A stretch of DNA of 64,000 nt, taken from Bacillota bacterium (GTDB lineage: Bacteria; Bacillota; SHA-98; UBA4971). The position numbers and the translations under genes were made by a program. The notes under the pieces were generated by a model. It made no database searches, was not told the DNA's origin, and worked only from the letters and a program-made list of their open reading frames with translations. This document shows positions 13,834 through 46,330 of this stretch, piece after piece; positions within the stretch are counted from its first letter, which is position 1, and each line of letters opens with the position of its first letter. The stretch lies in assembly GCA_012842395.1 (NCBI GenBank), contig DUSX01000034.1, forward strand, positions 1 to 64,000, in the 5' to 3' direction.

Positions 13834-13836
13834 GCA

Positions 13837-16645: not shown

Positions 16646-16697
16646 GCGTAGAGGTCGAAGTCGAGCAGTCATGCATATTCAGTAAAGGACGGTGGAA

Positions 16698-19637: not shown

Positions 19638-19675
19638 GGCACGGAGACCCGCGTCTTGGACGGGTCCTCCGTGCC
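19638..19675 (+). promoter_or_regulatory. Hairpin between Shine-Dalgarno and start codon of livH2
   Basis: GGCACGGAG-ACCCG (19638-19651) pairs with CGGGT-C-CTCCGTGCC (19661-19675), giving 14 bp with one bulged C and a 9-base loop. A good Shine-Dalgarno, GGAGGTGA (19629-19636), lies just before it and ATG 19682 just after. When folded, the site is brought to about eight unpaired bases from the ATG. No other ribosome site or in-frame start is seen. Confidence 0.65.
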
Positions 19676-19681
19676 GATGGT

Positions 19682-20587
19682 ATGGCTTTGTTCATAGAGC
19701 AACTCGTCAACGGCCTCACTGTAGGCGCGGTGTACGCGTTGGTGGCCCTGGGGTACACCATGGTGTACGGCGTCATGCGGCTCATCAACTTCGCCCATGG
19801 TGACCTCTTCATGCTTGGGTCATACCTTGGATTCACCTTGCTCGTAAGCACGTTTGTCGGCAGTTCTCTGCCTTTGTGGGCCGCTCTTGTCGTGACCGTG
19901 GTCGTGTCCGCTGTCGGCATAGCTGCACTCGGGGTGCTGGTGGAACGGGCCGCCTACCGGCCGCTGCGCAGGTCAAACCGCTTGACCGCCGTCGTCTCCG
20001 CCATGGGGGTTTCGATCTTCCTCCAAAATGCGGCGATGCTCATTTGGGGGCCGCGCTACCGCGCATATCCATCGTGGGCCGTCCCTGATCTGCGGTGGGA
20101 AATCGGAGCCTTCCACATAAGTCTCATGCAGGTGTTGATTCTCGCCGTGTCCCTTGTCCTGATGGCAGGGTTGTATCTATTCGTACAGCGCACAACGGTC
20201 GGAGCGGCCATCCGCGCCACGGCCATCGACCATGACACCGCAAGGCTCATGGGCATCGACGTGGACCAGATCATCCGGCTCATCTTCATTATCGGGCCTG
20301 GTCTCGGCGCAGTGGCAGGGGTGTTGCTGGGCTTGTACTACCGCCAGATCCACTTCACCGTGGGATGGTCGTACGGATTGAAGGCTTTCACCGCGGCGAT
20401 CCTCGGAGGCATCGGAAACATACCAGGAGCCATGGTGGGCGGGTTGCTGCTCGGGATCTTGGAGATGCTTGGCGCAGGCTACATCTCGGCAGCATGGAAA
20501 GATGTCTTCGTGTTTCTCATCCTGATCATGCTCCTCATCTTCCGTCCCACGGGGCTCCTAGGCGAACGTGTCGCGGAGAAGGTCTAG
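19682..20587 (+). CDS. livH: Amino-acid ABC transporter permease LivH (set 2)
   Basis: 301-residue LivH permease with the usual N-terminus (IEQLVNGLTVGAVYALVALGYTMVYGVMRLINFAHGD) and a coupling segment ATAIDHDTARLMGIDVD. It has about eight membrane helices and the family's GGIGNIPGAMVGGLLLGILE loop. The start codon is preceded by a stable hairpin rather than directly by its ribosome site. It forms the membrane domain with LivM2, which follows after 29 bases. Confidence 0.93.
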   Translation: MALFIEQLVNGLTVGAVYALVALGYTMVYGVMRLINFAHGDLFMLGSYLGFTLLVSTFVGSSLPLWAALVVTVVVSAVGIAALGVLVERAAYRPLRRSNRLTAVVSAMGVSIFLQNAAMLIWGPRYRAYPSWAVPDLRWEIGAFHISLMQVLILAVSLVLMAGLYLFVQRTTVGAAIRATAIDHDTARLMGIDVDQIIRLIFIIGPGLGAVAGVLLGLYYRQIHFTVGWSYGLKAFTAAILGGIGNIPGAMVGGLLLGILEMLGAGYISAAWKDVFVFLILIMLLIFRPTGLLGERVAEKV

Positions 20588-20616
20588 CTCAGGACCCAGA
20601 CTGTGAGGTGGTATCG

Positions 20617-21627
20617 TTGCGTCTCGGACCAGGCCTTTCCATAAGGCACCGCAGGACCGCGCCCAAGGCGCCGGCATTTCCCAGGCGCACCCCGGCTTTG
20701 GTCACTGCGGCCATCGCCGCAGCCGCCGTGCTCTTTCCGATGGTCGCAAGCGACTACTGGATAGACGTCGCCGTTTTCTGGGGTATCTACGTGCTCCTCG
20801 GCCTGAGCCTCAACATCATCGTCGGCGAGGTCGGGCTGTTCGATATGGGTCACATGGCGTTTTTCGCCATTGGGGCGTACACCACGGCCATACTAAGCGC
20901 ACGCTTTGGCATCTCGCTGTGGCTCCTCCTCCCGTTGAGCGGGATCGTTGCAGGGCTCGCAGGCCATGTTTTGGCGCGGCCCATCATTCATCTTCGGGGA
21001 GACTACCTCCTCATAGCTACCATAGGCCTTAACGAGATGGTGCGCATCAGCCTCCTCAACAATCCCTGGGGACTCACCGGGGGTCCGAACGGCATAATCA
21101 TGCTCGACCAGTTCCGTATATTCGGGCTCGCAGTGCAGAGGCCCACGCACTTTTACTACCTTGTGTGGACGTGCGTGGCGGCAAGCATGCTCGCTCTGGT
21201 TAGGCTGCAGCGCTCGCGAATAGGCCGCGCGTGGAACTTCATCCGGGAGGATGAGGTGGCTGCCGAGGCCATGGGCGTCGACGTCAGGCGGGCCAAACTC
21301 CTGGCGTTCACGCTGGGGGCGGGCCTCGCGGGCGCCGCGGGCACGATCTTCGCTGCCAAATTGGTGGTGATCTCGCCAGAGAGCTTTACGTTCATGGAGT
21401 CGGTGATACTCTTCTGCATCGTGATTCTCGGGGGGATGGGCTCGATCCCCGGAGTGGTCCTGGGGTCCGCGGCCATGCTGGTGCTCCCCGAGATCCTGCG
21501 CAACTTCGCCCAATACCGCATGTTGTTCTTCGGAGCTGCCATGGCCCTCATGATGATCTTCCGCCCCCAGGGGCTCTGGCCCAGCAAGCGGTGGTCGACG
21601 AAGTTGCAGGAGGGTGAAGGTGAGTGA
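20617..21627 (+). CDS. livM: Amino-acid ABC transporter permease LivM (set 2)
   Basis: The start chosen is TTG 20617, with GAGGTGG six bases upstream, giving 336 residues; the open frame extends upstream into livH2 without support. LivM marks are FWGIYVLLGLSLNIIVGEVGLFDMGHMAFFAIGAY, HLRGDYLLIATIGLNEMVRI and coupling helix FIREDEVAAEAMGVDV. The tail is short compared with set 1. The TGA stop overlaps the livG2 ATG (TGATG), indicating coupled translation. Confidence 0.92.
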   Translation: MRLGPGLSIRHRRTAPKAPAFPRRTPALVTAAIAAAAVLFPMVASDYWIDVAVFWGIYVLLGLSLNIIVGEVGLFDMGHMAFFAIGAYTTAILSARFGISLWLLLPLSGIVAGLAGHVLARPIIHLRGDYLLIATIGLNEMVRISLLNNPWGLTGGPNGIIMLDQFRIFGLAVQRPTHFYYLVWTCVAASMLALVRLQRSRIGRAWNFIREDEVAAEAMGVDVRRAKLLAFTLGAGLAGAAGTIFAAKLVVISPESFTFMESVILFCIVILGGMGSIPGVVLGSAAMLVLPEILRNFAQYRMLFFGAAMALMMIFRPQGLWPSKRWSTKLQEGEGE

Positions 21628-22535
21628 TGGACGGCGCACGCGGTGAGAACCGGGAGCGGGGTGCGGCAAACCAAGGGACGGGCAATGGCATCATCCTCAA
21701 GCTTAAGGGCGTGAGCAAGCGGTTCGGCGGTCTCCGCGCCGTGGACGGCTTCGATCTCGACGTCCGCGAGGGCAGCATCACGAGCCTCATAGGGCCGAAC
21801 GGAGCTGGCAAGACAACCGTCTTCAACCTCGTAACAGGCATCTACCGGCCCGACGAGGGAAGCATCTCGTTTGCTGGACGCGAGCTTGTCGGCAAGCTGC
21901 CCCACGAGGTCGCGGAGGCAGGCATCGCACGCACGTTTCAGACGCTGCGCCTTTTCGAGAACCTGACGTGTTTCGAGAACGTGCTCGCGGGCCAGCATTG
22001 CAGGGGCAGGGCAGGGGTGATCGCGTCCATCCTCAGAACTCCGGCCCAGCGTAAGGAGGAGGACCGCATGCGAGGTGAGGCCGAGCGATGCCTTCGTCAG
22101 ATGGGCCTGTGGGGATGTCGCGACGAGCTTGCGCGCAACCTCCCTTACGGCAACCGCAGGCGGCTCGAAATAGCACGGGCGTTGGCCACGCGGCCGCGCC
22201 TGCTCATCCTCGATGAGCCCGCGGGAGGTCTGAACGAGGAAGAGACAGCCGGGCTCATGGACCTCATCGAGGAGATCAGGGCCTCGGGGATCACCGTTTT
22301 CCTTATCGAGCACGACATGCAGGTGGTTATGGGAGTATCGGACCTGGTGGCCGTAATGGACAACGGGCAAAAGATCAGCGAGGGGACCCCGGAGGAGGTC
22401 CAGCACGATCCCCGCGTGATCGAGGCGTACCTGGGCACGGGGGACGACCTCGAAGAGCCCGACACGAGCGAAGGCGACAATGACGCCGGAGCCACCGGCG
22501 AAGGCACCGGCCGCGTAAGCGTGAAGGTGGATTGA
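21627..22535 (+). CDS. livG: Amino-acid ABC transporter ATPase LivG (set 2)
   Basis: 302-residue ATPase with Walker A GPNGAGKTT, ARTFQTLRLFENLT, signature LPYGNRRRLEIARAL, Walker B LILDEPAGGLN and switch IEHDMQVV. It carries an extra hydrophilic N-terminal stretch of about 20 residues and an acidic C-terminal tail (DDLEEPDTSEGDNDAG), both absent from set 1. The ATG overlaps the livM2 stop by one base, with AGGAGGGTGAAGG upstream; GTG 21624 is an alternative start. Confidence 0.94.
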   Translation: MDGARGENRERGAANQGTGNGIILKLKGVSKRFGGLRAVDGFDLDVREGSITSLIGPNGAGKTTVFNLVTGIYRPDEGSISFAGRELVGKLPHEVAEAGIARTFQTLRLFENLTCFENVLAGQHCRGRAGVIASILRTPAQRKEEDRMRGEAERCLRQMGLWGCRDELARNLPYGNRRRLEIARALATRPRLLILDEPAGGLNEEETAGLMDLIEEIRASGITVFLIEHDMQVVMGVSDLVAVMDNGQKISEGTPEEVQHDPRVIEAYLGTGDDLEEPDTSEGDNDAGATGEGTGRVSVKVD

Positions 22536-22536
22536 C

Positions 22537-23340
22537 ATGAGCCTGCTTGAGCTTGAGGACGTTCGCGTATCATATGGAAACGTTGAAGCGGTGAAGGGCA
22601 TCACCCTGAGCGTCGACGAGGGAGAGACCGTGACCCTGCTCGGCGCAAACGGGGCGGGCAAGACCACGACCCTTCGGGCTGTCTCCGGGCTTCTGCGGCC
22701 GCGCGGCGGGCAGATCCGCCTGGACGGCCGGGAGATCAACGCTCTGCCTGCTCACAAGATAGTAGAGCTGGGCGTCGCGCACGTGCCCGAGGGGCGCCGG
22801 GTGTTCGCCACGCTTACCGTCGAGGAGAACCTTAACCTTGGAGCCTATAAGCACCGCCGCGACCGCGCTCGGGTCGAGGCAGGGAGGGATCGAGCGTACC
22901 GGCTTTTCCCGAGGCTTGCCGAGCGCCGGAACCAACTCGCGGGCACCCTGTCCGGAGGCGAACAGCAGATGCTCGCCATCGCTCGGGGGCTCATGGCGAA
23001 TCCGAGGGTGCTCCTCTTGGACGAACCCTCACTCGGGCTCGCACCCAAGCTCGTGCAGGAAATATTCCGCACGATCCGGGAGATCAATCGCGAGGGCGTG
23101 ACCATTCTCCTCGTCGAGCAGAACGCTAGGATCGCGCTCCACGTGGCGCACAGGGCCTACGTGCTCGAGACCGGTCGCATCGTGCTTGCCGGGCCATCGC
23201 GGGAACTCCGCGAAGACCCCAGGGTCCAGCAGGCGTACCTGGGAGTGGGCAAGAGGATCGCTGCAGCTCGCCGGGCAACGCGCGAAGGAGCCGGAAGCGG
23301 CATCGAGCAACCGGCACCGGACGCGAGAAGTCGCGTCTGA
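22537..23340 (+). CDS. livF: Amino-acid ABC transporter ATPase LivF (set 2)
   Basis: 267-residue LivF with Walker A GANGAGKTT, signature LSGGEQQMLAIARGL, Walker B LLDEPSLGLAP and VEQNARIAL. It starts one base after the livG2 stop and ends with a basic tail of about 30 residues. The next gene is convergent and begins 10 bases away, so the two transcripts must overlap or stop within coding sequence; no terminator hairpin is visible between them. Confidence 0.95.
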   Translation: MSLLELEDVRVSYGNVEAVKGITLSVDEGETVTLLGANGAGKTTTLRAVSGLLRPRGGQIRLDGREINALPAHKIVELGVAHVPEGRRVFATLTVEENLNLGAYKHRRDRARVEAGRDRAYRLFPRLAERRNQLAGTLSGGEQQMLAIARGLMANPRVLLLDEPSLGLAPKLVQEIFRTIREINREGVTILLVEQNARIALHVAHRAYVLETGRIVLAGPSRELREDPRVQQAYLGVGKRIAAARRATREGAGSGIEQPAPDARSRV

Positions 23341-32349: not shown

Positions 32350-32379
32350 TTGACAACGGGCGGAATATGTTGCTAGAAT
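32350..32379 (+). promoter_or_regulatory. Sigma-A promoter of the T-box operon
   Basis: Consensus TTGACA (32350-32355), an 18-base spacer, and TAGAAT (32374-32379); it ends about 60 bases before the T-box stem I. Confidence 0.8.
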
Positions 32380-32436
32380 AGGGGCAACCGGATGTGACAT
32401 CGCCAGCACGTGCATGGCAGCGTCCATAACCACAAA

Positions 32437-32826
32437 CACGCGAGAGACGTTGAAGGGGAGGTCGCCGCAGAAGATCCTTATCCAGAGCGAGCGGGGGATG
32501 GTGCAAGCCCCGCGGAGATGGATGTGGCGAGTGGGCCCCAGAGTCGCAGGCTGAAAGGTTGGCGAAGGCACCGCGCCGGCGGGCTGCGGTCTACCGGAGA
32601 CGGAGCACCGGGCAGGTGCGACAGGACTCTAGCGCACGCGGAACAAGCCGCCGAGTAGGCTGAGCCGGGAGCCTCCGTTACAAGGCAGGGATATCGCTGG
32701 AGGCGTCGTGTCGTATTGTGGCGCCGAACGCCGTATCCTGGTAACGAGTGGGGTAGGTTCGGTCTATCTCACGAGGGTGGCACCACGGGTTTTCAAGCTC
32801 GTCCCTTACGGGGCGAGCTTATTTGT
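32437..32826 (+). promoter_or_regulatory. T-box leader, predicted Trp (UGG) specifier
   Basis: A tRNA-sensing leader. The T-box sequence AGGGTGGCACCACGGG (32774-32789) is near-canonical and is followed by an intrinsic terminator (32795-32820) of the competing fold. Stem I can be drawn with GCGA/TCGC at its base, GGGG (32455-32458)/CCCC (32536-32539), then a specifier loop (AGG opposite GTGGG), TCGCC (32462)/GGCGA (32526), the AG bulge CAGAGCGAG and the distal GATGGTGCAAG loop. The loop's triplet is TGG (32532-32534). CCGTTA-type sequence follows before the T-box. Uncharged tRNA should favour read-through into the downstream operon. Confidence 0.88.
32795..32826 (+). terminator. T-box-controlled intrinsic terminator
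   Basis: AAGCTCGTCCC (32795-32805) pairs with GGGGCGAGCTT (32810-32820), one G-U, loop TTAC, then ATTTGTTTAT. It is the alternative to the T-box antiterminator. Confidence 0.9.
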
Positions 32827-32904
32827 TTATGTTGAGCGTTTGTAGTTTGCAGCCAGTATCCGAAGGATGACACACGGAGTCTTGGTCCGGAGGCGGCGTC
32901 TGAC

Positions 32905-33774
32905 ATGTACGATCTCAAAATCGTGGTTGACGAGATCAAGGGATTCTGCGATCTTCCAATGAAAGTCGGGGATTACTTCGAGGTAAGCGGGGGCCGGATC
33001 ACGATCCCTGACGGCAAGTTCATGTGTCTGTGGGCCCTTCAGAGCCTGCTGCCGATGCTCCCGGCGAAGCAGCGCAACATCGTCGAGGACAACGACTGGC
33101 TTGCGGACACCGTCCGGGTGATGTGCCCCGACCCCAACGGCATGGTCGTGTTTCGCATCGAACGCGTCGGGGAGCCCGCCCCCAGCGGCAAAGGAAAGCC
33201 GTGCTGCTGGCCAGAGCGCGGCGGTGGCACGCGGGGCGCGCCGGGGCCACGTCCCAGGATGCTAGTGAACGAGAAAGTGTGCGCTGGTTGTCGCGCCTGC
33301 GAGCTCATCTGCAGTTTTGTACACGAGCGAAGGTTCTCCGACCTGCTTTCAAGGATACACGTGTACAAGGTGGATGAGGACGGGATCGATCGTCCGATAG
33401 TGTGCAGGCAGTGCGGCAACGCGAGGTGCGTGGACGCCTGTCCGAACGCGGCGCTCTCCCGCGACCCCAACACGAGACACATCATCGTGGACGAGGCGCG
33501 ATGCACGAAATGCGGGTCTTGCGCGCAAGCCTGCCCCTTCGACGCCATCGCGTTCCATCCCGAAAGCGGGACGCCGCTCATATGCGATCTCTGCGGCGGC
33601 GATCCCGAGTGCGTCAAGAGGTGCCCCACCGGGGCGATCTCGTACGGCCTCGCGGGCGCTGCTGCGCGCGCCGCAGCAGCCCCGCCCCATGCCGGCTCGG
33701 GGCATTCGACACGCCCGGCAGGCCCGGCAGGCGGGGTCGGAGACCAGGGCGGCTCCGGTCGTGCGGCACGGTGA
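32905..33774 (+). CDS. TIGR04076-like domain fused to a four-cluster ferredoxin, AOR electron partner
   Basis: 289 residues in two parts. Residues 1-90 (YDLKIVVDEIKGFC...GKFMCLWALQSLLPML...VMCPDPNGMVVFRIE) resemble the small TIGR04076 proteins of anaerobes. After a Gly/Pro linker, residues about 115-245 form a HycB/AorB-type iron-sulfur domain with Cys motifs CAGCRACELIC, CRQCGNARCVDACP, CTKCGSCAQACP and CDLCGGDPECVKRCP, enough for four [4Fe-4S] clusters. It should carry electrons for the oxidoreductase encoded next. It is the first gene after the T-box; the fusion itself is unusual. Confidence 0.86.
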   Translation: MYDLKIVVDEIKGFCDLPMKVGDYFEVSGGRITIPDGKFMCLWALQSLLPMLPAKQRNIVEDNDWLADTVRVMCPDPNGMVVFRIERVGEPAPSGKGKPCCWPERGGGTRGAPGPRPRMLVNEKVCAGCRACELICSFVHERRFSDLLSRIHVYKVDEDGIDRPIVCRQCGNARCVDACPNAALSRDPNTRHIIVDEARCTKCGSCAQACPFDAIAFHPESGTPLICDLCGGDPECVKRCPTGAISYGLAGAAARAAAAPPHAGSGHSTRPAGPAGGVGDQGGSGRAAR

Positions 33775-33802
33775 GATAAGCTCTAGTGGGGGGCAAGAAC
33801 CT

Positions 33803-35740
33803 GTGAAGAAGCTCTTCGGATATGCGGGAAGGATACTCGACATCAATCTCGGCGCACGCAACGGTGCCGGTGGAATGACGGGTGCGGCCTCCGTAGAGCC
33901 GCTCGACCCGCAAGATGCGATGCGCTACATCGGCGGGCGCGGCCTCAACGTCGCGCGGCTCGTCCGCGAGATCGACCTGGACGTCGACCCGCTCTCTCCC
34001 GAGAACGTCCTTCTCGTCGGGGTGGGGCCCCTCGACGGGACGCTCTTCCCGGGTGCGGCACGGGTGAACTTTACCTCGAAATCGCCGCAGACGGGAATAC
34101 TCGGTGACTCCAACGCGGGTGGTTTCTTCGGCCCGGAACTCAAGTTCGCAGGGTACGACCAAGTCATCATACGCGGACGCGCCGCGAGACTGTCGTATCT
34201 CTTCATATCCGACGACGGGGTCCAGCTTTTACCTGCCGAGGACCTGGCGGGCCTGGACGTGTGGGAGACGCAAAGCGCGCTCCTTGCACGGCACGGGCGC
34301 CGCGCACAGGTCGCGTGCGTGGGTCCAGCCGCCGAGCGCGGGGTGAAGTTCTCAGGGATCTTCTGCAACCTCGTGCGGGCCGCGGCGCGCACGGGCATGG
34401 GCGCGGTGATGGCGTCCAAGGGGCTCAAGGCCATCGTGGTCCGCGGGACGAGGCCGCTGGAGGTGGCGAGCCCGGAAGAGTTCCTCGCCTTGGTGAAGGC
34501 GCTGGATGCGAGGATCCTCAGCCACCCAGAGTACAAACCCAGAGTCGCGCTCGGCACGACCAGGCTGGTCTCGGCCCTCAACGCTGCAGGGTGTCTTGCC
34601 ACGCGTCACTTCAAGACCGGGAGGTTCGAGCATGCGGCCGAGGTGAGCGGGGAGGCCCTTGCGGCACGCCTCAGGGTGAAGGGCAAGGCGTGTTTCTCAT
34701 GCACCATCCCGTGCAGCAGGTTCTTTGAGGTAAAGTCCGGGCCGCACGCCGGCCTCAAGAGCGAGGGACCGGAGTTCGAGGGGCTCGCGGCCTTCACCTC
34801 CCGGGTCGGCGCGGGAGACCTGGAAGCGGGCCTTGCAACCCTCGACATATGTAACCGCGCGGGGATGGATGCCATCGCCACTGCGGAGTGCGTGTCCTTC
34901 GCCATGGAGTGCTTTGAGCGCGGGATCATCTCACGCGAAGAGGCCGATGGGCTCGACCTGACGTGGGGGAACAGTGACGCTGTTAGGACCTTGGTCCGCA
35001 AGATCGCGTCGCGTGAAGGCTTCGGGGACGTGCTTGCGGACGGCGTGCGGGAGGCGGCGCGGAGGATAGGCCGGGGCAGCGAAGACCTGGCGATGCATGT
35101 GAAAGGGCTTGAGCTCTTCATGGCCGACCTCAGGGGGCTGAAGGGCTACGCCCTGGGCAACGCGGTGGCGAGCAGAGGCGGCGATCATTTGCGGTCGGAA
35201 CCCTCCTTCGAGTTGACCGGGGACGCCGAGGCGGCCGAGAGAAGGTTCGGGGCGAGGGAGGCGGCCTTTAGGCTCGAGCACAAAGGCAAGGGGCGAGTGG
35301 TGAAACACTTCGAGGAGCTGTGCGCCCTCGCTGACTCGCTCGACGCCTGCAAGAACACCATCGCGAACATGGAGGTCCTGCCGTTCGACGATGCGGCAAA
35401 CATTCTCCGGGCTGCAACGGGTCTCGAGTTCGACGGTGCCGGGGTGCAGGCCGCGTGCGAGCGCATCGTGAACGTCGAGCGGTGTTTCCTCGTGGCCCTC
35501 GGGATCCGCAGAAAGGACGACACGCTTCCCAAGCGCTTCCGTGAGGAGCCCATGCCGGCCGGGTGTGGAGCCACGAGCGGGAGCACCGTCGCCCTGGACG
35601 AGATGCTCGACGAGTACTACGAAGCCAGGGGGTGGGACGTGGCCACAGGGGTTCCAACCGCGTCCACACTGAGGCGACTCGGCCTCGATGACTGGCTGGG
35701 ACGTCTCGAAGACCGGGGCGTGCCGCAAATCCGTCAATGA
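33803..35740 (+). CDS. aor: Tungsten-dependent aldehyde:ferredoxin oxidoreductase
   Basis: 645 residues from GTG 33803 (GGGGGGCAAG upstream); the longer frame overlaps the ferredoxin gene. AOR family marks are the N-terminal GYAGRILDINL, ARVNFTSKSPQTG and the first cluster ligands CFSCTIPC (Cys296, 299, 303) with a fourth Cys in LDACKN near 515. It oxidises aldehydes to acids with ferredoxin, using a tungsten or molybdenum bis-pterin, and may run in reverse. Amino-acid-derived aldehydes are typical substrates; a neighbouring amino-acid importer in the same operon fits this. Confidence 0.93.
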   Translation: MKKLFGYAGRILDINLGARNGAGGMTGAASVEPLDPQDAMRYIGGRGLNVARLVREIDLDVDPLSPENVLLVGVGPLDGTLFPGAARVNFTSKSPQTGILGDSNAGGFFGPELKFAGYDQVIIRGRAARLSYLFISDDGVQLLPAEDLAGLDVWETQSALLARHGRRAQVACVGPAAERGVKFSGIFCNLVRAAARTGMGAVMASKGLKAIVVRGTRPLEVASPEEFLALVKALDARILSHPEYKPRVALGTTRLVSALNAAGCLATRHFKTGRFEHAAEVSGEALAARLRVKGKACFSCTIPCSRFFEVKSGPHAGLKSEGPEFEGLAAFTSRVGAGDLEAGLATLDICNRAGMDAIATAECVSFAMECFERGIISREEADGLDLTWGNSDAVRTLVRKIASREGFGDVLADGVREAARRIGRGSEDLAMHVKGLELFMADLRGLKGYALGNAVASRGGDHLRSEPSFELTGDAEAAERRFGAREAAFRLEHKGKGRVVKHFEELCALADSLDACKNTIANMEVLPFDDAANILRAATGLEFDGAGVQAACERIVNVERCFLVALGIRRKDDTLPKRFREEPMPAGCGATSGSTVALDEMLDEYYEARGWDVATGVPTASTLRRLGLDDWLGRLEDRGVPQIRQ

Positions 35741-35799
35741 GCCGCGTTCGAAAACCCGATTTGAAAGTAAAGCAAAGCAAAGCAGGAGGTAGAGAAGAG

Positions 35800-37104
35800 A
35801 TGAGAGTCGTGCTGTCACGTGTCAAGTGCACCGATGAGGGCCGCACACCAGGGAAAGACGCCACGGGCCCCGCGGGTCCCGGACGCCCCGCAGGGCCTGC
35901 AAAGGATGGTTCGGCGAGGCTTGGGACCGCCCGCATCCGCGCAAGAGCGCTCGTAGCGGGGATCGCGATGGTGCTAGTGCTCGGTTCCGGGACCGGCCTC
36001 GTGTTCAGCAAGGATCTGCCGCCGGTCAAGATCGGCGCGGCGGGGCCGTTCACGGGGGACCTCTCCAAGATCGGCCTGGATTCCCTAAACGCTATCCGGA
36101 TGGCGGTTGAGGAGGCGAACGCCGAGGGCGGAGTAGGCGGGAGGAAGATCGAGATAGTAGTCGGCGACGACGCCGGCGACCCCGCGCGGGCAGTTACAGT
36201 TGCCGACAAGTTCGCGATGGACCCGAGCGTGCTCGGCGTGGTCGGGCCCATGAACAGCGGCACCGTGAACGCAGCTCTTCCAACGTACCAGCGGGCGGGG
36301 CTCGTGCTAATCAGCCAATCAGCCACGAACCCGTCCCTCACTGAGCTTGGCTACAAGGTCATGCACAGGATATGTCCGAGAGACGACGCGCAGGGACCCG
36401 CGGCGGCGAGGTTCATAGCGGAGGAGCTCGGTGCGAAACACGTATACATCATCGACGACAAGGGAGCCTACGGGCAAGGCCTCGCGGACCAGGTCGCAGC
36501 GGCGCTCCAGAAGGCCGGCGTCAAGCTCACGCGCGGGCAAGTCACCCCCGAGGACAGGGACTTCTCGCCCATCCTGACCAAAGTCAAGGCGGCGTCCCCT
36601 GACCTCCTGTACCTCGCGCTCCCCAACCCGGCTCAGGCCGCGGCCTTGATCAAGCAGGCCGTGGGTCTCGGGCTCCGGCCAAAGCTCATGGGAGGAGACG
36701 GCCTCAAGGAGAGGGACCAGCTCATCGTGGGCGCAGGCGGAGCGGCGGAGGGCATGTACGTCACGGCCATAGGTCGGGATATCAAGGACGTGCCTGAAGC
36801 GCAGGGCTTCATCAAGAAGTTCGAGAGCAGGTACGGGGCGATGAGCATCTTCTCAGGCCAAAGCTACGAGGCAACGAAGATCCTGATAGAAGCCATGAGG
36901 AAGGCGGCTGCCGGGAACCCGGCCAGGCTCACACGCGCGGCCGTGTTGGAGGCGGTCCACAACACCCGGGGTTACAAAGGCATACTCGGATTCCCCGTGG
37001 GCTTCACGAGCAAAGGCGACGTGCTGGGCGCGAGCATCTACGTGTTCCAGGTGAAAGGCGGCGATTTCGTCCAGGTCAAGGAGTATCCCGCCGAGGTCAA
37101 GTGA
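35800..37104 (+). CDS. livK: Amino-acid ABC transporter substrate-binding protein (set 3)
   Basis: 434 residues from ATG 35800, with AGGAGGT 10 bases upstream. The N-terminus is unusual: about 45 hydrophilic residues precede the signal-like segment (ARALVAGIAMVLVLGSGTGLVFS), so the export signal is internal or the true start is later. The mature domain starts LPPVKIGAAGPFTGDLSKIG and has a pocket region VVGPMNSGTVNAALPTYQ unlike sets 1 and 2. It belongs to the T-box operon, 59 bases after aor. The predicted Trp specifier suggests an aromatic amino acid ligand. Confidence 0.9.
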   Translation: MRVVLSRVKCTDEGRTPGKDATGPAGPGRPAGPAKDGSARLGTARIRARALVAGIAMVLVLGSGTGLVFSKDLPPVKIGAAGPFTGDLSKIGLDSLNAIRMAVEEANAEGGVGGRKIEIVVGDDAGDPARAVTVADKFAMDPSVLGVVGPMNSGTVNAALPTYQRAGLVLISQSATNPSLTELGYKVMHRICPRDDAQGPAAARFIAEELGAKHVYIIDDKGAYGQGLADQVAAALQKAGVKLTRGQVTPEDRDFSPILTKVKAASPDLLYLALPNPAQAAALIKQAVGLGLRPKLMGGDGLKERDQLIVGAGGAAEGMYVTAIGRDIKDVPEAQGFIKKFESRYGAMSIFSGQSYEATKILIEAMRKAAAGNPARLTRAAVLEAVHNTRGYKGILGFPVGFTSKGDVLGASIYVFQVKGGDFVQVKEYPAEVK

Positions 37105-37207
37105 CCGCGCCGACGAGTGACAAGCAGAAGGCAGGACGCGCGGAAGCGGCGACCGAAACAATCATGTCCGCGTCACGAGCGATGAAAGCTGAGGAGAGAG
37201 GGCTGCC

Positions 37208-38137
37208 ATGGGACAGGTGCTGGCACAGCTGCCGCAACAGATCGTGAACGGCCTCACGCTGGGCAGTGTTTACGCCTTGCTCGCGTTGGGTTACTCCATG
37301 GTCTACGGCATTCTCAAGATGCTGAACTTCGCGCACGGCGACGTCTTCATGGTCGGCGCGTTCGCGGGATGGGGGGTGCTCACGCTATTCACCCTGAACG
37401 GCACGCTCAGCACAAACCCTCTCGCCGTCCTCCTCCTCATGCTCGCGGCTGCGACCGCGGCCACAAGCATCCTGGGTGGGCTCATCGAGCGCTTCGCGTA
37501 CCGCCCCTTGAGCGGGAGTTCGCGCCTTGCTCCGCTCATCTCCGCTCTCGGCGTCTCCATCATCCTCGAGAACGCGGCGATGCTGCTGACAGCGGGGCGC
37601 GCCAAGGCTTACCAAACGGAGGCGTTGATCCCGCCGTCGTGGACTGTGTATCTCGGGAGCACAGCCATCTCGGCGACACGCCTCGCGATAATCGCGACGT
37701 CCTGCGTGGTCATGCTCGCGCTTGACTTCGCAGTATCCCGCACGATGCTCGGCAAAGCCATGCGCGCCACGAGCGAGGATCCCGAAGCCGCCGAGTACAT
37801 GGGCGTCCGTACGTCAAAGGTCATCGCAGCGACCTTCGTGATAGGGTCGGGGCTCGCGGGCGTCGCGGGAGTCATGATCGGGCTTTATTACATGCAGGTG
37901 GATTTCATCATGGGATTCTCTGCGGGCCTCAAAGCCTTCACCGCGGCCGTGCTCGGGGGCATCGGAAGCATAAGAGGAGCCATGGCCGGTGGGATCGTGC
38001 TGGGCCTGGCCGAAAGCCTCGGGGTGCTGTTCGTAGCGCCCGTGTACAAGGACGCCATCGTTTTCACGGTGCTGATCGCCACGCTTATACTCAAGCCCGC
38101 CGGGATCCTCGGCGAGCGTGTACACGACAAGGTCTGA
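37208..38137 (+). CDS. livH: Amino-acid ABC transporter permease LivH (set 3)
   Basis: 309 residues; LivH N-terminus QQIVNGLTLGSVYALLALGYSMVYGILKMLNFAHGDVFMVG, coupling segment ATSEDPEAAEYMGVRTSK and GGIGSIRGAMAGGIVLGLAE. ATG 37208 follows GGAGAGAGGG. It ends 34 bases before the repeat element that separates it from the fused permease-ATPase gene. Confidence 0.93.
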   Translation: MGQVLAQLPQQIVNGLTLGSVYALLALGYSMVYGILKMLNFAHGDVFMVGAFAGWGVLTLFTLNGTLSTNPLAVLLLMLAAATAATSILGGLIERFAYRPLSGSSRLAPLISALGVSIILENAAMLLTAGRAKAYQTEALIPPSWTVYLGSTAISATRLAIIATSCVVMLALDFAVSRTMLGKAMRATSEDPEAAEYMGVRTSKVIAATFVIGSGLAGVAGVMIGLYYMQVDFIMGFSAGLKAFTAAVLGGIGSIRGAMAGGIVLGLAESLGVLFVAPVYKDAIVFTVLIATLILKPAGILGERVHDKV

Positions 38138-38171
38138 GAACGACCGTCGCGAGGGCGACCGTCCAGGAAGT

Positions 38172-38369
38172 CTAAGTGGGGTGCAAAAGTGCTCCCAACT
38201 CTTGGGAGGGGCTGCCGCTGATTGCACGAGGGGTGTCAAAATCCGGTCACTGGCCGGAGAGACTGAATTCTGGCGAAGCGCGCCCCGCTTGGGGCGCCGT
38301 CCCCGAGTGCAACACCGGCAACCCGCCAACTACCGGAAGACGGACGAGGATTAATGCACCCTCACTTAG
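38172..38369 (+). repeat. MITE-like structured repeat, copy 3 (type B)
   Basis: A 198-bp element bounded by CTAAGTGGGGTGCA (38172-38185) and TGCACCCTCACTTAG (38355-38369), inverted repeats with a single indel. Inside, TGCAC-GA-GGGG (38223-38233) faces CCCC-GA-GTGCA (38301-38311): two stems joined by a symmetric GA/GA loop. Hairpins TCCGG/CCGGA and GCGCCCC/GGGGCGC occupy the same positions as in the other copies. It lies inside the T-box operon and ends 10 bases before the fused gene's ATG. Confidence 0.82.
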
Positions 38370-38379
38370 TCGAGGGGAT

Positions 38380-41010
38380 ATGAAAAAGATGAGGAGTCTC
38401 GATAGCACAAGGCTGGTATACCTCGGCGTCGCGCTTCTCGCCATAGCGCCGCTCGTCACGCACAACTTCTATTACCTTCGCGTGGTCGGCACAGTCGGGC
38501 TGTATCTCATCCTGGCCATCGGCCTCAATGTCGTGGCCGGGGAGGCCGGCCTTCTCGACCTCGGATATGTCGCATTCTACGGGATCGGCGCATACGTTTA
38601 CGCGCTCCTCTCGTCGCCCCACTTCGGAATCCATGCGCCCTTTCTCTTGAGCGCGGCGTGCTCGGTGGTGGCGGCGACGCTGGCGGCGCTTGCTGTGAGC
38701 CTTCCCACGCTTCACCTTCGCGGGGATTACTTGGCCATGGTGACCCTCGGATTCGGGCAGATCGTCCGGATCCTCCTCAATAACCTGGACCGACCGGTGA
38801 ACATCACAAACGGGCCCAACGGCATAGTAGGCATCGATCCCCCGAGGTTCTTCGGTTTGAGTCCAGCGTCGCTCGAGGCCTCATACTGCCTGATATGGGC
38901 ATTCGCTCTCGGCGCAGCAGTAGTGACTGGTCGCGTGCTTCGTTCAGGGATCGGACGGGCGTGGGCTGCCGTGCGTGAAGACGAGGTGGCGGCCGGATGC
39001 ATGGGCGTGGACGTGGCGCGTTACAGAGTGACAGCATTCATGTGGGGTGCGGGCCTTGCCGGGCTCGCCGGGGCGCTCTTCGCGTCGTGGCAGGGGGCGG
39101 TGTTTCCCCAGAACTTCACCATGACTGAAACTATCACGGTGTACTGCATGATAATCCTGGGCGGGCTGAGGAGCCTACCGGGGCTGGTGGCAGGCACCGC
39201 GGCGCTGGTGCTGCTTCCGGAGCTACTGCGGGCCTACAGCGTATATAGGATGCTGATCTACGGCGTCGCCCTCGTGCTTCTGGTGGTTTACCGTCCTCAG
39301 GGGCTCATCCCGGCACCGCCCACGTCCGCGGCGACCTTGGCCCTAGCAGCAGATGCAAGCCGCAAGCAGCGGCATGACGACCGCGGCCGCCTTGCCGGGC
39401 TCACCCCGGCCGACGAGGAGCCGCCGGCTCTTGAGATCCTCGACGCGAGGTGTGCCTTCGGCGGGCTCGCGGCGCTCGCGGGGGTAAACCTCACGGTGCA
39501 TCGCGGTGAGGTCGTCGGCATCATCGGACCGAACGGGGCGGGGAAGACCACCCTCTTCAATTTGATCACGGGTGTGACCAGGCCGTCCTCAGGGGACATC
39601 AGGGTGTTCGGAAAGAGCATCGTAGGGCTGCCGTCCCACAGGATATCAGCGCTCGGCGTCGCCCGCACGTTCCAGAACATCAGGCTCTTCGAGGGCCAGA
39701 GCGTGCTCGAGAACGTGCTTGCCGGGTGCCACCTGCGGGTGAGGCGCGATTTCGCAAGCGTGACCCTCCGCACGCGATCCTTCCGCACCCGTGAGGCGGC
39801 TGAGGTCCTGGCTGCCCGCGACGCACTGCAACTCGTAGGCCGTTCCCTCTCGCAGCGTGAGGCGGAGTGTGTGCGCGGCCTGGCGTACCCCGACAGGCGG
39901 CGGGTTGAGCTTGCGCGGGCGCTCGCGGCGAAGCCTCGCATCCTCCTGCTTGACGAGCCTACAGCGGGGATGACGCCAGACGAGATCGCCGAAATGGTTG
40001 ACACCATAAGGCTGCTGAGGGACCGCGGATACACCGTGGTCGTGATAGAGCACCACATGGACGTGGTCGCGGAAACGTGCGACCGCGTGATCGTCCTCGA
40101 CCACGGGGAGAAGATCGCCGAGGGCACGCCGGCTGAGGTGGCCTCCAACCCTGACGTCATGCGCGCATACCTTGGCTCGGAGCAGGCTCGCGGCGCAGGC
40201 GAGGGCGGTCGACGTGCTGAACCGCAAGCTGAACCGCGAGTGGAGGTCAAGGCAGCGCGAGCGCGAAGGCCCGAGGGCACCGCGACGTCGCGCGCGCCGC
40301 TCGACCCAGTGCTTGAAGTGAAGAACGTCCACTCGTCATACGGTGCGGTGAAGGTCCTACAGGGAGTAGATTTGTACGTTGCGAGAGGCGAGATCGTGGC
40401 ACTGCTCGGAAGCAACGCCGCAGGCAAGTCCACGCTGCTCAAGACGGTGCTCGGCCGAGTCCGTCCGTCGGAGGGCGAGATCTGGTTCCTGGGCAGGCGG
40501 ATAGACGGCCTCCCGACATCAGAGGTGGCGAGGGCGGGGATTGCGGTGGTGGCCGAGGGGCGGAGGATCTTTCCAGGCCTCTCGGTCCTCGAAAACCTCG
40601 AGCTGGGCAGCTACGTGCTCGCGAGCCGCCGGGAGGCTGCCGAGCGCATCGAACTGATCCTCGATCTCTTTCCGGTGCTCGCGGAGAGGCGCAATCAGAA
40701 GGCGGGCACGCTTTCCGGAGGCGAGCAGCAGATGCTCGCGATCTCGCGCGCTCTTGTCTCGAACCCCAAGCTCATTTGCATGGATGAACCTTCGATGGGC
40801 CTAGCTCCTGTGCTCGTCGACAAGGTGATGCAGACGATCGAAGGGATCAGACAGGCGGGAACGACCGTGCTGCTCGTGGAACAGAACGCCCGCGCCGCCC
40901 TCGCCATCGCTGACCGGGCCTACGTGCTGCGTGCCGGGAGGATCGTGGGGTCAGGAGCCGCCGAGGACTTCCTAGCCGGTGAAGCGCTCGCGCGGGCGTA
41001 CCTTGCCTAA
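38380..41010 (+). CDS. livMGF: Fused LivM-LivG-LivF: permease plus two ATPases
   Basis: 877 residues without interruption. Residues 1-310 are a LivM permease (VGTVGLYLILAIGLNVVAGEAGLLDLGYVAFYGIGAY; HLRGDYLAMVTLGFGQIVRI; AVREDEVAAGCMGVDV). After a hydrophilic linker, about 350-610 is a LivG ATPase (Walker A GPNGAGKTT, signature weakened to LAYPDRRRVELARAL, LLLDEPTAGM). After a second linker of about 40 charged residues, about 644-877 is a LivF ATPase (Walker A GSNAAGKST, LSGGEQQMLAISRAL, CMDEPSMGLAP). ATG 38380 follows GAGGGG closely; ATG 38389 is an alternative. The stop TAA lies in the terminal repeat of the next element. Confidence 0.92.
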   Translation: MKKMRSLDSTRLVYLGVALLAIAPLVTHNFYYLRVVGTVGLYLILAIGLNVVAGEAGLLDLGYVAFYGIGAYVYALLSSPHFGIHAPFLLSAACSVVAATLAALAVSLPTLHLRGDYLAMVTLGFGQIVRILLNNLDRPVNITNGPNGIVGIDPPRFFGLSPASLEASYCLIWAFALGAAVVTGRVLRSGIGRAWAAVREDEVAAGCMGVDVARYRVTAFMWGAGLAGLAGALFASWQGAVFPQNFTMTETITVYCMIILGGLRSLPGLVAGTAALVLLPELLRAYSVYRMLIYGVALVLLVVYRPQGLIPAPPTSAATLALAADASRKQRHDDRGRLAGLTPADEEPPALEILDARCAFGGLAALAGVNLTVHRGEVVGIIGPNGAGKTTLFNLITGVTRPSSGDIRVFGKSIVGLPSHRISALGVARTFQNIRLFEGQSVLENVLAGCHLRVRRDFASVTLRTRSFRTREAAEVLAARDALQLVGRSLSQREAECVRGLAYPDRRRVELARALAAKPRILLLDEPTAGMTPDEIAEMVDTIRLLRDRGYTVVVIEHHMDVVAETCDRVIVLDHGEKIAEGTPAEVASNPDVMRAYLGSEQARGAGEGGRRAEPQAEPRVEVKAARARRPEGTATSRAPLDPVLEVKNVHSSYGAVKVLQGVDLYVARGEIVALLGSNAAGKSTLLKTVLGRVRPSEGEIWFLGRRIDGLPTSEVARAGIAVVAEGRRIFPGLSVLENLELGSYVLASRREAAERIELILDLFPVLAERRNQKAGTLSGGEQQMLAISRALVSNPKLICMDEPSMGLAPVLVDKVMQTIEGIRQAGTTVLLVEQNARAALAIADRAYVLRAGRIVGSGAAEDFLAGEALARAYLA

Positions 41011-42270: not shown

Positions 42271-43461
42271 GTGGACGCGATCCGCAAGGCCCGGGAGGCG
42301 CTGGACCTAGCGTGCCACCGCTCTTCCGGGACGAACGGCCAACCCGCGGCGTCGCCACCGCCGCCCGCGGCGCGAAGGGCGGACCTCACTGTCGCCGATA
42401 TGGTGGCGCTCCTCGGCGCGGGCCCGGACGAGCAGGACATTCTTTTCAAGCTCGCAGATGAGGCCCGACGGCGCTTCGTGGGGGACGCCGTGCATGTCCG
42501 AGGCATCATCGAGTTCTCCAACTACTGCGTGCGAAACTGCGCCTATTGCGGGCTGCGCCGGGACAACAGGAGCCTAGTCCGCTACCGGATGACCAGCGAA
42601 GAGGTGGTGAGGGCCGCAACCAAGGCCGCAGTTGCGGGATACAGGACCATCGTGCTCCAGTCAGGCGACGACCTTCACTACCGCGCTGACGACATCGCTC
42701 GGATGGTGGAGGCGATCAAGAAGGAGGCGCCGGTCGCGGTGACACTCTCCATAGGTGAGCGCTCGCGGCAGGAATACGCCGTGATGAGGCGGGCAGGGGC
42801 GGACAGGTTCCTGCTGAAACACGAGACCGCCGACCCGGAGCTCTATAGCAGGCTCCACCCAGGGATGACCCTGGACGGCCGCATCGAGTGCCTCGTCCAC
42901 CTTCGCGACCTCGGGTTTCAAGTGGGCTCGGGGAACATAGTCGGCCTTCCTGGGCAAACCCTGGACACCCTAGCGAGGGACATCGCCCTCCTTCGCGCGC
43001 TCGACGTGGAGATGGCTGGGATCGGGCCGTTCATTCCTCATCCGAACACGCCGCTCGCGTCGTGCCCGCCGGGCGACCTGGCCATGTCCCTGAAGGTCCT
43101 GGCCGTGGCACGGCTCGCGTTGCCCCTCGCGCACCTTCCCGCGACGACGGCCCTGGCGACCCTCCACCCGGATGGCAGGCGCCTGGGGCTCTCGTGCGGC
43201 GCGAACGTGGTCATGCCGAACGTCACCCCGCTGAACTTTCGGCGCCTCTACGAGATATACCCGGGCAGCATCGCGCAACGGACGCCCGAGGACGGCGGGA
43301 TAGCCGAGCTTCGGGCGCTGCTTCGCGAGCTCGGAAGGCCCATCTCGAACACCCGCGGCGACAGCCCAAAGCCACCGTGGACCGCTCGTGCGGCCGCGTC
43401 ATCCGACGCGGTGCCGATATCCCGGCACGGCGGAGCGGAGTGTGTGCGCATACGCAAATAG
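42271..43461 (+). CDS. hydE: [FeFe]-hydrogenase maturation radical SAM protein HydE
   Basis: 396-residue radical SAM enzyme with the cluster motif CVRNCAYCGLRRDN (Cys86, 90, 93) in the HydE context IIEFSNYC. HydE acts with HydG and HydF to build the 2Fe subcluster of [FeFe]-hydrogenase. Other family marks are VGLPGQTLDTLARDI, GIGPFIPHPNTPLA and ANVVMPNVTPLNFRRLYEIYPG. The start is GTG 42271 without a strong ribosome site. The C-terminal 45 residues are hydrophilic and not part of the usual barrel. It heads hydE-hydG-hydF; the hydrogenase itself is not in the window. Confidence 0.94.
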   Translation: MDAIRKAREALDLACHRSSGTNGQPAASPPPPAARRADLTVADMVALLGAGPDEQDILFKLADEARRRFVGDAVHVRGIIEFSNYCVRNCAYCGLRRDNRSLVRYRMTSEEVVRAATKAAVAGYRTIVLQSGDDLHYRADDIARMVEAIKKEAPVAVTLSIGERSRQEYAVMRRAGADRFLLKHETADPELYSRLHPGMTLDGRIECLVHLRDLGFQVGSGNIVGLPGQTLDTLARDIALLRALDVEMAGIGPFIPHPNTPLASCPPGDLAMSLKVLAVARLALPLAHLPATTALATLHPDGRRLGLSCGANVVMPNVTPLNFRRLYEIYPGSIAQRTPEDGGIAELRALLRELGRPISNTRGDSPKPPWTARAAASSDAVPISRHGGAECVRIRK

Positions 43462-43491
43462 ACCAAAGGAAAAGGAAGAGGTGATCGTCCA

Positions 43492-44943
43492 ATGAAGACG
43501 GCAGAAAGGCGCGACTTCATTCCCCATGACGTGATCGAGAAGCTCCTAGCCGACACGAGCGAGCCGGACATCCGTGAGGTGCAGGACATCGCGGGGAAGG
43601 CGCGCGAGGCGAAGGGAATATCCCCGCGCGAGGTTGCGAGGCTTCTTCAGGTGACGCGCGAGGACTCCCTCGCAATACTGTACGAGGCCGCACACGAGGT
43701 CAAGGAGAGGATCTACGGGAAACGCCTCGTGCTCTTCGCGCCGCTCTACTTCTCCAATTACTGCGTGAACAACTGCAAGTACTGTGGCTACCGGCGTGAC
43801 AACGACTTCGTCCGCCGCAGGCTCTCGAGGGACGAGGTCGTAGAGGAGGTCAAGATCCTCGAGTCCATGGGGCACAAACGGCTGGCGCTGGAGTGCGGCG
43901 AGGACCCGGTCAACTGCCCCATGGATTACATCGAGGAAGTCATCGAGACGATATACGCGACGAAGGTCGGGAACGGGAGCATTCGCCGGGTCAACGTAAA
44001 CATCGCCGCCACGACTGTGGAAGATTACAAGCGGCTCAAGGCCGCCAAGATCGGCACCTACGTGCTCTTTCAGGAGACATACCACCGGCCCACGTACACG
44101 GCGATGCATCCCTCTGGGCCGAAAGCGGATTACGACTGGCACCTCGGCGCCATGGACCGCGCCATGAAGGCGGGGATCGACGACGTCGGCATCGGCGTCC
44201 TCTTCGGCCTGTACGATTACAAGTTCGAGGTCCTCGGCCTGGTGTACCACGCGCTTCATCTCGATTCAACGTTCGGGGTCGGACCGCACACCATATCCGT
44301 GCCGAGGCTCCGGCCGGCACGGGGGATCACGCTCGAGAGGTTCCCGCACCTGGTGAGCGACCGAGACTTCAAGAAACTCGTGGCGATCCTGCGGCTCGCG
44401 GTCCCGTATACGGGAATGATCCTCTCCACGCGCGAGCGGCCGGGGTTCCGCGACGAGGTCTTCGCGGTAGGCATATCCCAGATCAGCGCCGGGTCGCGCA
44501 CAGGCGTCGGCGCATACAAGAAGGACGCCCCGGACGACAGCGATCGTGCGGCGACGGCGTCCGCGGCATCCCGGCCGACAACGGATGACGACGACAGCGC
44601 CCAGTTCGCGGTGGACGATCATCGGACCCCGGACGAGATCGTCGCGAGCCTTGCCCGGTCGGGGTACATCCCGAGCTACTGCACGGCGTGCTATAGGAAG
44701 GGTCGCACAGGCGACAGGTTCATGGAATTCGCGAAGACCGGGCAGATCCAGAACATGTGCCAGCCCAACGCCATCCTGACGTTCAAGGAGTACCTGCTCG
44801 ACTATGCCTCGGACGAGACTAGGAAAGTCGGGGAGGAGGCCATAAGAAAGCACCTGGACATGATCCCTTCGCCCAAAATCCGGCAGGAGACCATCGCCCG
44901 CCTCGCCAGGCTTGAGGGTGGCGAGCGCGACTTGTACTTCTGA
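43492..44943 (+). CDS. hydG: [FeFe]-hydrogenase maturation radical SAM protein HydG
   Basis: 483-residue tyrosine lyase that releases CO and cyanide for the hydrogenase active site. The N-terminal SAM cluster motif is CVNNCKYCGYRRDN (Cys92, 96, 99). The C-terminal second cluster motif is CTACYRKG with the third Cys in IQNMCQPNA, about 22 residues later, which is diagnostic for HydG over ThiH. A hydrophilic insert of about 30 residues (KKDAPDDSDRAATASAASRP) precedes the C-terminal domain. It starts 30 bases after hydE. Confidence 0.96.
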   Translation: MKTAERRDFIPHDVIEKLLADTSEPDIREVQDIAGKAREAKGISPREVARLLQVTREDSLAILYEAAHEVKERIYGKRLVLFAPLYFSNYCVNNCKYCGYRRDNDFVRRRLSRDEVVEEVKILESMGHKRLALECGEDPVNCPMDYIEEVIETIYATKVGNGSIRRVNVNIAATTVEDYKRLKAAKIGTYVLFQETYHRPTYTAMHPSGPKADYDWHLGAMDRAMKAGIDDVGIGVLFGLYDYKFEVLGLVYHALHLDSTFGVGPHTISVPRLRPARGITLERFPHLVSDRDFKKLVAILRLAVPYTGMILSTRERPGFRDEVFAVGISQISAGSRTGVGAYKKDAPDDSDRAATASAASRPTTDDDDSAQFAVDDHRTPDEIVASLARSGYIPSYCTACYRKGRTGDRFMEFAKTGQIQNMCQPNAILTFKEYLLDYASDETRKVGEEAIRKHLDMIPSPKIRQETIARLARLEGGERDLYF

Positions 44944-44972
44944 GAGTCGGCCGCCCCGACCCGCGCATCGGC

Positions 44973-45031
44973 GGGACGGGATGGGACGGGACGACATGGG
45001 ATGAGATGCGATGAAGTGAAATGAGGCGAGG
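44973..45031 (+). repeat. Degenerate purine-rich tract between hydG and hydF
   Basis: About 60 bases made of short imperfect units such as GGGACG, GGGATG, GAGATG and GCGATG. It lies between the hydG stop and the hydF ribosome site and has no visible coding role. Confidence 0.5.
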
Positions 45032-45061
45032 TCAGACGACGCGTCAAGGGGAGGGGTACGC

Positions 45062-46330
45062 GTGGAATCGACGCCCCGCAGCAACAGGCTGCACATCGCC
45101 ATACTGGGCCGCCGTAACGCAGGTAAGTCGAGCCTTATAAACGCCCTTGCGGGCCAGGACGTGGCCATCGTGTCCGACGTGCCCGGCACCACAACGGACC
45201 CTGTGTACAAGGCCATGGAGATCCTTCCGATCGGTCCGGTCGTCCTCATAGATACCGCCGGGATAGACGATGTCGGCCCTCTCGGGGGCATGCGCGTGCA
45301 GAGGACGAGGCAGGTCCTGGCGAAGTCGGACGTGGCGATCGTTGTAGTCGACGCAACGCGTGGCGTGGGCGAATACGAGCGGTCCGCGGCAGCCGAGGTA
45401 CGCGAACGCGGCATTCCTCTCGTCGCGGTCGCGAGCAAGATGGACATCGCGGCTGCACAGTCCGCCGGTGCCCCCGAATGGAAGGAGACGCTTGATCGCT
45501 GGGGCGCCGGTCTCGGCGCGAGCCTTGTCCCGGTGAGCGCCAAGACAGGGCAGGGGATAAACGTCCTTAAGGAGCGCATCATCGAAGCCGCTCCGAAGGA
45601 CTGGGAGGGCCCGCCCATAGTCGGTGACCTCGTGTCGCCCGGGGACACTGTGGTGCTGGTGGTACCCGTGGACATCGAGGCTCCCAAGGGGAGGCTCATC
45701 CTGCCGCAGGTGCAGACGATCCGCGACCTCCTCGACCACGGCGTCCGCACGGTCGTTGTGAAGGAGGACGCGGTGCGCTCCGCCATAGAGAACCTCAAAC
45801 ACGGCCCGTCGCTCGTCGTGACCGACTCGCAGGTTTTCGGGACCGTGTCGCGGCAGGTCCCGGACGGCGTGCCGCTCACATCGTTCTCCATCCTCTTCGC
45901 GCGTCACAAGGGAGACCTCTGCACACTCGTGGAGGGAGCACGCCACGTCGCTGACCTCCACCCGGGCGCGAGGATCCTCGTGGCAGAGGCGTGCACACAT
46001 CACCCAATCGGCGACGACATAGGCAGGGTCAAGATACCCGCCTGGCTCGAGCGAAGAGTAGGCGGCAAACTTGATTTCGTCTGGGCGGCTGGAGCCGGCT
46101 TCCCAGAGGACCTCGGCAAGTTCGACCTCGTGGTCCACTGCGGGGGATGCATGATCAACCGGAAGGAGATGCTGCACCGACTCGCAAAAGTGAGGTCTGC
46201 CGGGGTGCCTGTGGTCAACTACGGCGTGCTCATCGCGTACCTGCACGGGATCCTCGAAAGGACGCTCGAGCCATTCAAGGCCGCGGGCGTGCTCCACGCC
46301 GGGCCGCCCCACGGTCTTGAAAGGTCTTGA
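45062..46330 (+). CDS. hydF: [FeFe]-hydrogenase maturation GTPase HydF
   Basis: 422-residue scaffold/GTPase. G1 GRRNAGKSSLINAL, the switch region VPGTTTDPVYK and G3 DTAGIDDVG mark the N-terminal TrmE/Era-like GTPase. The C-terminal cluster ligands are ACTHHPIGDD (near 310) and HCGGC (near 360), the CxH...HCxxC pattern unique to HydF. The start is GTG 45062 after AGGGGAGGGG. The three maturases are in one operon. Confidence 0.96.
   Translation: MESTPRSNRLHIAILGRRNAGKSSLINALAGQDVAIVSDVPGTTTDPVYKAMEILPIGPVVLIDTAGIDDVGPLGGMRVQRTRQVLAKSDVAIVVVDATRGVGEYERSAAAEVRERGIPLVAVASKMDIAAAQSAGAPEWKETLDRWGAGLGASLVPVSAKTGQGINVLKERIIEAAPKDWEGPPIVGDLVSPGDTVVLVVPVDIEAPKGRLILPQVQTIRDLLDHGVRTVVVKEDAVRSAIENLKHGPSLVVTDSQVFGTVSRQVPDGVPLTSFSILFARHKGDLCTLVEGARHVADLHPGARILVAEACTHHPIGDDIGRVKIPAWLERRVGGKLDFVWAAGAGFPEDLGKFDLVVHCGGCMINRKEMLHRLAKVRSAGVPVVNYGVLIAYLHGILERTLEPFKAAGVLHAGPPHGLERS

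Follow-up and report, generated by a model that had tools for sequence, protein, structure and literature searches.

Which amino acid governs the operon at positions 32350-41010 of contig DUSX01000034.1 from a Bacillota bacterium (lineage SHA-98; UBA4971), and why does an operon for amino-acid import begin with genes for a ferredoxin fusion and an aldehyde:ferredoxin oxidoreductase (AOR)? The window analysed was the whole stretch of 64,000 nucleotides, which was compared with homologous loci of relatives (designated by G numbers). A first-pass annotation made from the letters alone had described a tRNA-Trp T-box in front of a ferredoxin fusion, an AOR and a LivKHMGF-type importer, and had linked aromatic amino acid uptake to aryl-aldehyde metabolism. 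Comparison of sequences has established the class of the leader, its specifier, the conservation of the operon, the absence of trp genes and the association of the AOR clade with tryptophan control. The explanation considered likely is a tryptophan-scavenging operon of an auxotroph, in which an AOR subfamily would serve tryptophan supply or salvage; regulation of the operon in response to tryptophan is well supported by these comparisons.

The T-box leader and its specifier

The leader matched the Rfam T-box model RF00230 at 32441-32809 on the plus strand, on which all features of the operon lie, with 47.4 bits (E=2.8e-9 on a stretch of 661 bases and E=3.1e-9 genome-wide). In the RF00230 alignment, stem I (32441-32545) carries the conserved distal motifs GAGCGAGC...GGUG...AA, aligned across eight genomes, and it is followed by a stem II region with the GAAA/AGUA motif and by stem III and a CCGUUA element (32543-32688, limits approximate). 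The T-box and antiterminator occupy 32774-32809, with a UGGC bulge at 32778-32781 that complements the GCCA end of tRNA-Trp. The T-box sequence AGGGTGGCACC at 32774-32784 is the sole exact match in the window; the pattern alone, with one mismatch allowed, was no rarer than chance, and its significance comes from the covariance model and from conservation. An intrinsic terminator was predicted at 32795-32820, with an 11 bp stem and a U-rich tail, overlapping the antiterminator. A free-energy fold of the leader compared with shuffled sequences was not significant (z -0.72), which is unsurprising for a GC-rich leader, and has not been used as evidence. With a T-box sequence, an antiterminator and a competing terminator all present, and with a stem I triplet that fits one tRNA, the leader at 32441-32809 is a T-box riboswitch, for which tRNA-dependent antitermination is predicted.

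A promoter of the sigma-70 type, TTGACA-N18-TAGAAT with an extended -10 TG (11/12 matches), was found at 32350-32379. Its hexamers are kept in the five congeners (G001-G005), so a transcription start located only downstream of the leader, which would have removed the operon from T-box control, was judged unlikely.

The specifier triplet is UGG (Trp) at 32532-32534, flanked by TCGCC/GGCGA above and GGGG/CCCC below, as had been annotated. The specifier columns of the Rfam alignment read UGG in this leader, and these columns have been calibrated on the other T-boxes of the same genome, where they read UCC for serS, ACC for thrS, AUC for ileS, AUG for metG, UUC for the pheST region, GUC for valS, CUC for both leuA and leuS, and CAC ahead of a His-type amino-acid ABC system; the CCC specifier of proS was assigned by inspection. 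The discriminator base provided a second line of evidence. The tRNA-Trp(CCA) of the genome ends CTCCCCT-G-CCA, that is, with G73. The UGGC bulge demands G73, and Val, Phe and Gly are therefore excluded as cognate tRNAs, since A73 is found in the Val, Phe, Met and Glu(CTC) tRNAs and U73 in Gly; G73 also occurs in Ser(GCT).

Comparison of homologous leaders fixed the register. The loop reads GAG-UGG-G in the genus, GCG-UGG-G in G127, GAG-UGG-A in G092 and GAA-UGG-C in G259 and G436, so that UGG is invariant in ten orthologous leaders. An independent Trp T-box of G016, located ahead of a TrpP-like gene, has GAA-UGG-G and an identical AGGGTGGCACCACGGG. Because UGG alone is constant among the leaders of the relatives, the register was settled as UGG. 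Among the trpS loci examined, no second Trp T-box was found upstream of trpS in the genus; the T-box present at this place in G016 serves the TrpP-like gene.

Tryptophan control and the AOR clade

The T-box, the ferredoxin, the AOR and LivKHMGF were found together in the five congeners, in G127 of a second family and in G092 of a third family, where ferredoxin and AOR form a single 882-residue open reading frame lacking TIGR04076. In G259 and G436 a Trp T-box (107.6 and 108.7 bits) precedes ferredoxin, AOR and an NhaC-type transporter. A second operon copy in G002 lies at a contig end, with its leader beyond the visible sequence. The G002 copy on contig C74 (L044 5225-7089) gave a fragmented AOR match in tblastn, as if frameshifted, and another copy is located on contig C47. 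In G127, a 115-bit T-box with a UAC (Tyr) specifier (L049 13993-14242, minus strand) lies ahead of an M20-type amidohydrolase gene and is located some 2.2 kb upstream from the operon with the Trp T-box.

A tree was built with the 18 AORs that adjoin this type of ferredoxin and 21 other AORs sampled from the phylum. The 18 AORs formed one clade with 100/100 support and showed 38-43% identity to the 21 others. Some members of this clade are preceded not by a T-box but by TRAP-type (G/U)AG repeats with a spacing of 2-3 nt. Eight such repeats are present in G282 ahead of ferredoxin, AOR, NhaC and three M42 peptidases (0/300 shuffles reached eight, the maximum being four), and seven in G432 ahead of NhaC, an aminotransferase, ferredoxin and AOR. 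Both genomes are close in the AOR tree to G259 and G436, which have Trp T-boxes. The gene of G432 between the NhaC-type transporter and the ferredoxin (L158 4306-5490, minus strand) encodes a class-V aminotransferase or cysteine-desulfurase-like protein and may offer a clue to the AOR chemistry. In the G163 family (G163, G488, G489 and G491), five to eight repeats, mostly in two clusters, lie ahead of an APC amino-acid permease gene that is divergent from ferredoxin and AOR. The repeats of the G163 permease taken alone were moderately significant (4/300 shuffles), with weight added by the three sister genomes and by the absence of such chains elsewhere: over 164 loci and 1.745 Mb of strand sequence, chains of at least five repeats were confined to these leaders. 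The mtrB/TRAP gene is encoded in G282, G163 and G028 and was absent from the T-box genomes tested. The leader of G435 lies off its contig.

A control scan was carried out on 20 loci with an AorA-like ferredoxin and an AOR. A T-box was detected only in G092, a clade member, and in 0/19 of the others, two of which had matches to the molybdenum/tungsten riboswitch, one of them slightly below the gathering score. The transporter next to the clade AOR varies among HAAT ABC, NhaC and APC types. These comparisons suggest that the constant partner of tryptophan control across families is the AOR clade, not the importer, and that T-box and TRAP may replace one another in the control of a single conserved module.

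T-box control of tryptophan transporters has been described for TrpX in Streptococcus suis and for NSS-family transporters in the Bacillus cereus group (PMC9382623, PMC2494555). The operon studied shares with these systems the Trp specifier, the T-box, the terminator and a downstream amino-acid transporter, but it has a LivKHMGF-type ABC transporter, with a ferredoxin fusion and an AOR as its first genes. The TRAP-type leaders resemble those of the TRAP (MtrB) regulon of Bacillus subtilis: G282 and G163 carry mtrB as well as (G/U)AG repeats spaced by 2-3 nt. The genes known to be controlled by TRAP function in trp biosynthesis and tryptophan transport. In the literature searched, no paper was found with both 'T-box' and 'aldehyde ferredoxin oxidoreductase', and the searches on AOR and tryptophan, TIGR04076 and TRAP regulons revealed no such link and no AOR as a TRAP target. 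A Trp T-box on an operon with an AOR gene, and an AOR clade linked to tryptophan through two kinds of RNA control that are unrelated, thus appear to be new.

Tryptophan supply and the alternatives

Neither trpB nor trpC was found above the cut-off in any of the six genus members (6/6). In G127 there was only a TrpB2-like match and trpC was absent, and trpB was also absent in G259 and G282. Both genes are present in the class relatives G013, G015 and G016; trpB was found in G163 and G028, and trpC in G028. The organism is thus predicted to be a tryptophan auxotroph, and the genus appears unable to make tryptophan.

It is established for T-boxes that uncharged tRNA permits read-through. Transcription of the operon would start just upstream of about 32390. 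With charged tRNA-Trp the leader would fold the terminator and transcription would halt, whereas the CCA anticodon of uncharged tRNA-Trp would pair with the UGG specifier and its GCCA end with the UGGC bulge, and the antiterminator formed in this way would allow the expression of ferredoxin, AOR and LivKHMGF. We infer from this logic that the operon is induced under tryptophan shortage: because uncharged tRNA-Trp permits read-through, both importer and AOR are expected under these conditions, and supply or salvage therefore fits the AOR better than tryptophan breakdown does. The repeated association of the AOR clade with tryptophan control beside changing transporters points in the same direction, and a role of AOR and its Fe-S partner in tryptophan supply or salvage is thus most likely, for example through interconversion of an indole-type acid and its aldehyde with ferredoxin. 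An indolepyruvate:ferredoxin oxidoreductase (IOR) working in reverse was considered as an obligatory salvage partner and rejected: IOR-alpha was found in the five congeners, and neither this genome nor G127 gave a match above the cut-off.

The link to aryl-aldehyde metabolism in the first-pass annotation did not hold up as well as the rest, since the T-box turns the operon on at tryptophan shortage in a genus that apparently cannot make this amino acid. In its catabolic form, aromatic amino acids would be imported for fermentation, AOR would oxidise the derived aryl-acetaldehydes to yield reduced ferredoxin, and the T-box would block the system when tryptophan is plentiful. The similarity of AOR and its Fe-S partner to broad-range AOR complexes, the IOR-alpha of the congeners and the peptidases encoded after the NhaC gene in G282 would suit such a pathway. 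Nevertheless, switching on upon starvation for an amino acid is the wrong logic for catabolising it, IOR-alpha was not found above the cut-off in two carriers of the operon, as stated above, and the regulators of the clade are, in two systems, those of tryptophan supply; this role is therefore considered improbable.

About equally improbable is that the AOR is a passenger, the ferredoxin and AOR genes having been inherited beside the transporter by chance, with the transporter alone mattering for tryptophan. This would agree with the G163 family, in which the TRAP-like repeats precede the divergent permease and not ferredoxin and AOR, and with G028, where a clade AOR is encoded with an APC permease (in the order ferredoxin, AOR, APC) and no tryptophan control was detected upstream. 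However, the AOR clade is constant while the transporter family changes, T-boxes are missing from the nineteen other AOR loci, and in ten T-box leaders and one TRAP leader the ferredoxin and AOR genes come immediately after the regulator, with the transporter behind.

The loci of the G163 family and of G028 also weigh against a tryptophan-scavenging operon with a dedicated AOR, as do several further points. The leader score of 47.4 is below the Rfam gathering score of 93, a curated threshold that is a detection limit and not a defining trait of T-boxes; scores below 93 are common to all the T-boxes detected in the genome (12/12, including those of serS, thrS, ileS, metG, pheST, valS, leuS and proS), and the orthologous leaders of G092, G259 and G436 exceed it. 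The specifier loop of the genus lacks the canonical AGUA/GAA S-turn (GGUC/GAG instead), a motif that is common in T-boxes and not required; it is GGUA/GAG in G092 and canonical in G259, G436 and G016. The rule that pairs the UGGN bulge with the discriminator is broken once in the genome, where proS has UGGC versus A73. This proS T-box (L012, G000:C9:54427-54689, minus strand), with CCC and UGGC against the A73 of the Pro tRNAs seen, may be an exception to the rule or may reflect a further Pro tRNA. The absence of trp genes was determined on draft genomes that are 93-98% complete, and the assignment of tryptophan as the LivK ligand is putative.

By far the least probable alternative is a shifted specifier, read as GUG (Val), AGU (Ser), GGG (Gly) or GAG (Glu), which would make the importer an ordinary branched-chain or other system. 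All of these triplets occur in the loop GAGUGGG, and branched-chain amino acids are frequent substrates of LivKHMGF systems. However, the Rfam columns that are correct for the other T-boxes of the genome yield UGG, the G73 needed by UGGC is lacking in the Val, Gly and Glu(CTC) tRNAs, and the orthologous loops have only UGG in common.

For many members of the AOR family no physiological substrate is known. For the clade containing this AOR, repeated Trp-specific RNA control would narrow the substrate search to indole or aromatic chemistry under tryptophan starvation, and it would point to an unrecognised role of AOR in getting tryptophan; it would also make tryptophan the likely substrate of LivKHMGF and NhaC-type transporters that are otherwise anonymous. 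A broader proposal, put forward only tentatively, is that in anaerobic Bacillota a clade of tungsten AORs is dedicated to acquiring tryptophan, through an unrecognised reaction by which the amino acid is formed or recovered from an indole compound, and that the wiring of this clade to T-box and TRAP has been selected.

Operon genes, importer ligand and neighbouring loci

The co-directional gene order of the first-pass annotation was recovered, with gaps between consecutive genes of 28 bp, an overlap or about 60 bp, 103 bp and 242 bp, and terminator prediction revealed no terminator-like sites on the plus strand between the operon genes. The first gene (32905-33774) encodes a multi-cluster 4Fe-4S protein with a fused TIGR04076 domain, an AorA-like electron-transfer subunit that resembles the Fe-S subunits 8c0z_C and 9mqx_E. 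The second (33803-35740) encodes the AOR-family enzyme, probably tungsten-dependent, with AFOR_N and AFOR_C domains (PF02730, PF01314) and matches over nearly the full length to 1aor and 9mqx (nearest solved chains 9mqx_D and 1aor_A). It shares the catalytic subunit family with the solved complexes 8c0z and 9mqx and with the Pyrococcus-type 1aor, and a multi-cluster Fe-S partner is common to them; it differs from them in its separate clade, described above, in its tryptophan control and in an Fe-S partner that usually carries the N-terminal TIGR04076 domain, G092 being the exception.

The importer genes encode a LivK-type periplasmic amino-acid-binding protein (35800-37104, PF13458, in a frame open from 35737 and with a ribosome-binding-site-like AGGAGG before the ATG at 35800), a LivH-like permease (37208-38137, PF02653) and, according to domain matches, a single LivM-LivG-LivF polypeptide with a permease and two ATPases (about 38380-41010). 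All five functions of LivKHMGF (HAAT family) are matched, with a binding protein, two BPD_transp_2 permeases and two ATPases, and LivG retains the BCA_ABC_TP_C tail; the operon differs in having M, G and F in one polypeptide.

Compared with E. coli LBP, LivK retains S79 and T102 and has Asp in place of E226; Ser79, Thr102 and an acid at position 226 are the residues by which LBP holds the amino-acid backbone. The bulky pocket residues have been lost, W18 being replaced by Ile and Y202 by Pro (Pro or Ala across all carriers), and the binding proteins of the other two Liv systems in the window, LivK1 and LivK2, differ from the operon LivK at these positions. The pocket would thus fit an amino acid with a different side chain, for which tryptophan is the simplest choice, and tryptophan, perhaps along with other aromatic amino acids, is the most likely substrate of the ABC importer.

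The two other Liv-type ABC clusters of the window (12688-16645 and 18376-23340) have no T-box leaders, and a serine hydroxymethyltransferase gene (16692-17948) is located between them. Downstream of the operon, at 42271-46330, are the genes for the [FeFe] hydrogenase maturases HydE, HydG and HydF. Elsewhere in the genome, the His T-box (L005, G000:C17:165300-165764, minus strand), with a CAC specifier and UGGG versus C73, precedes genes for an ABC binding protein of the polar-amino-acid type and a permease.

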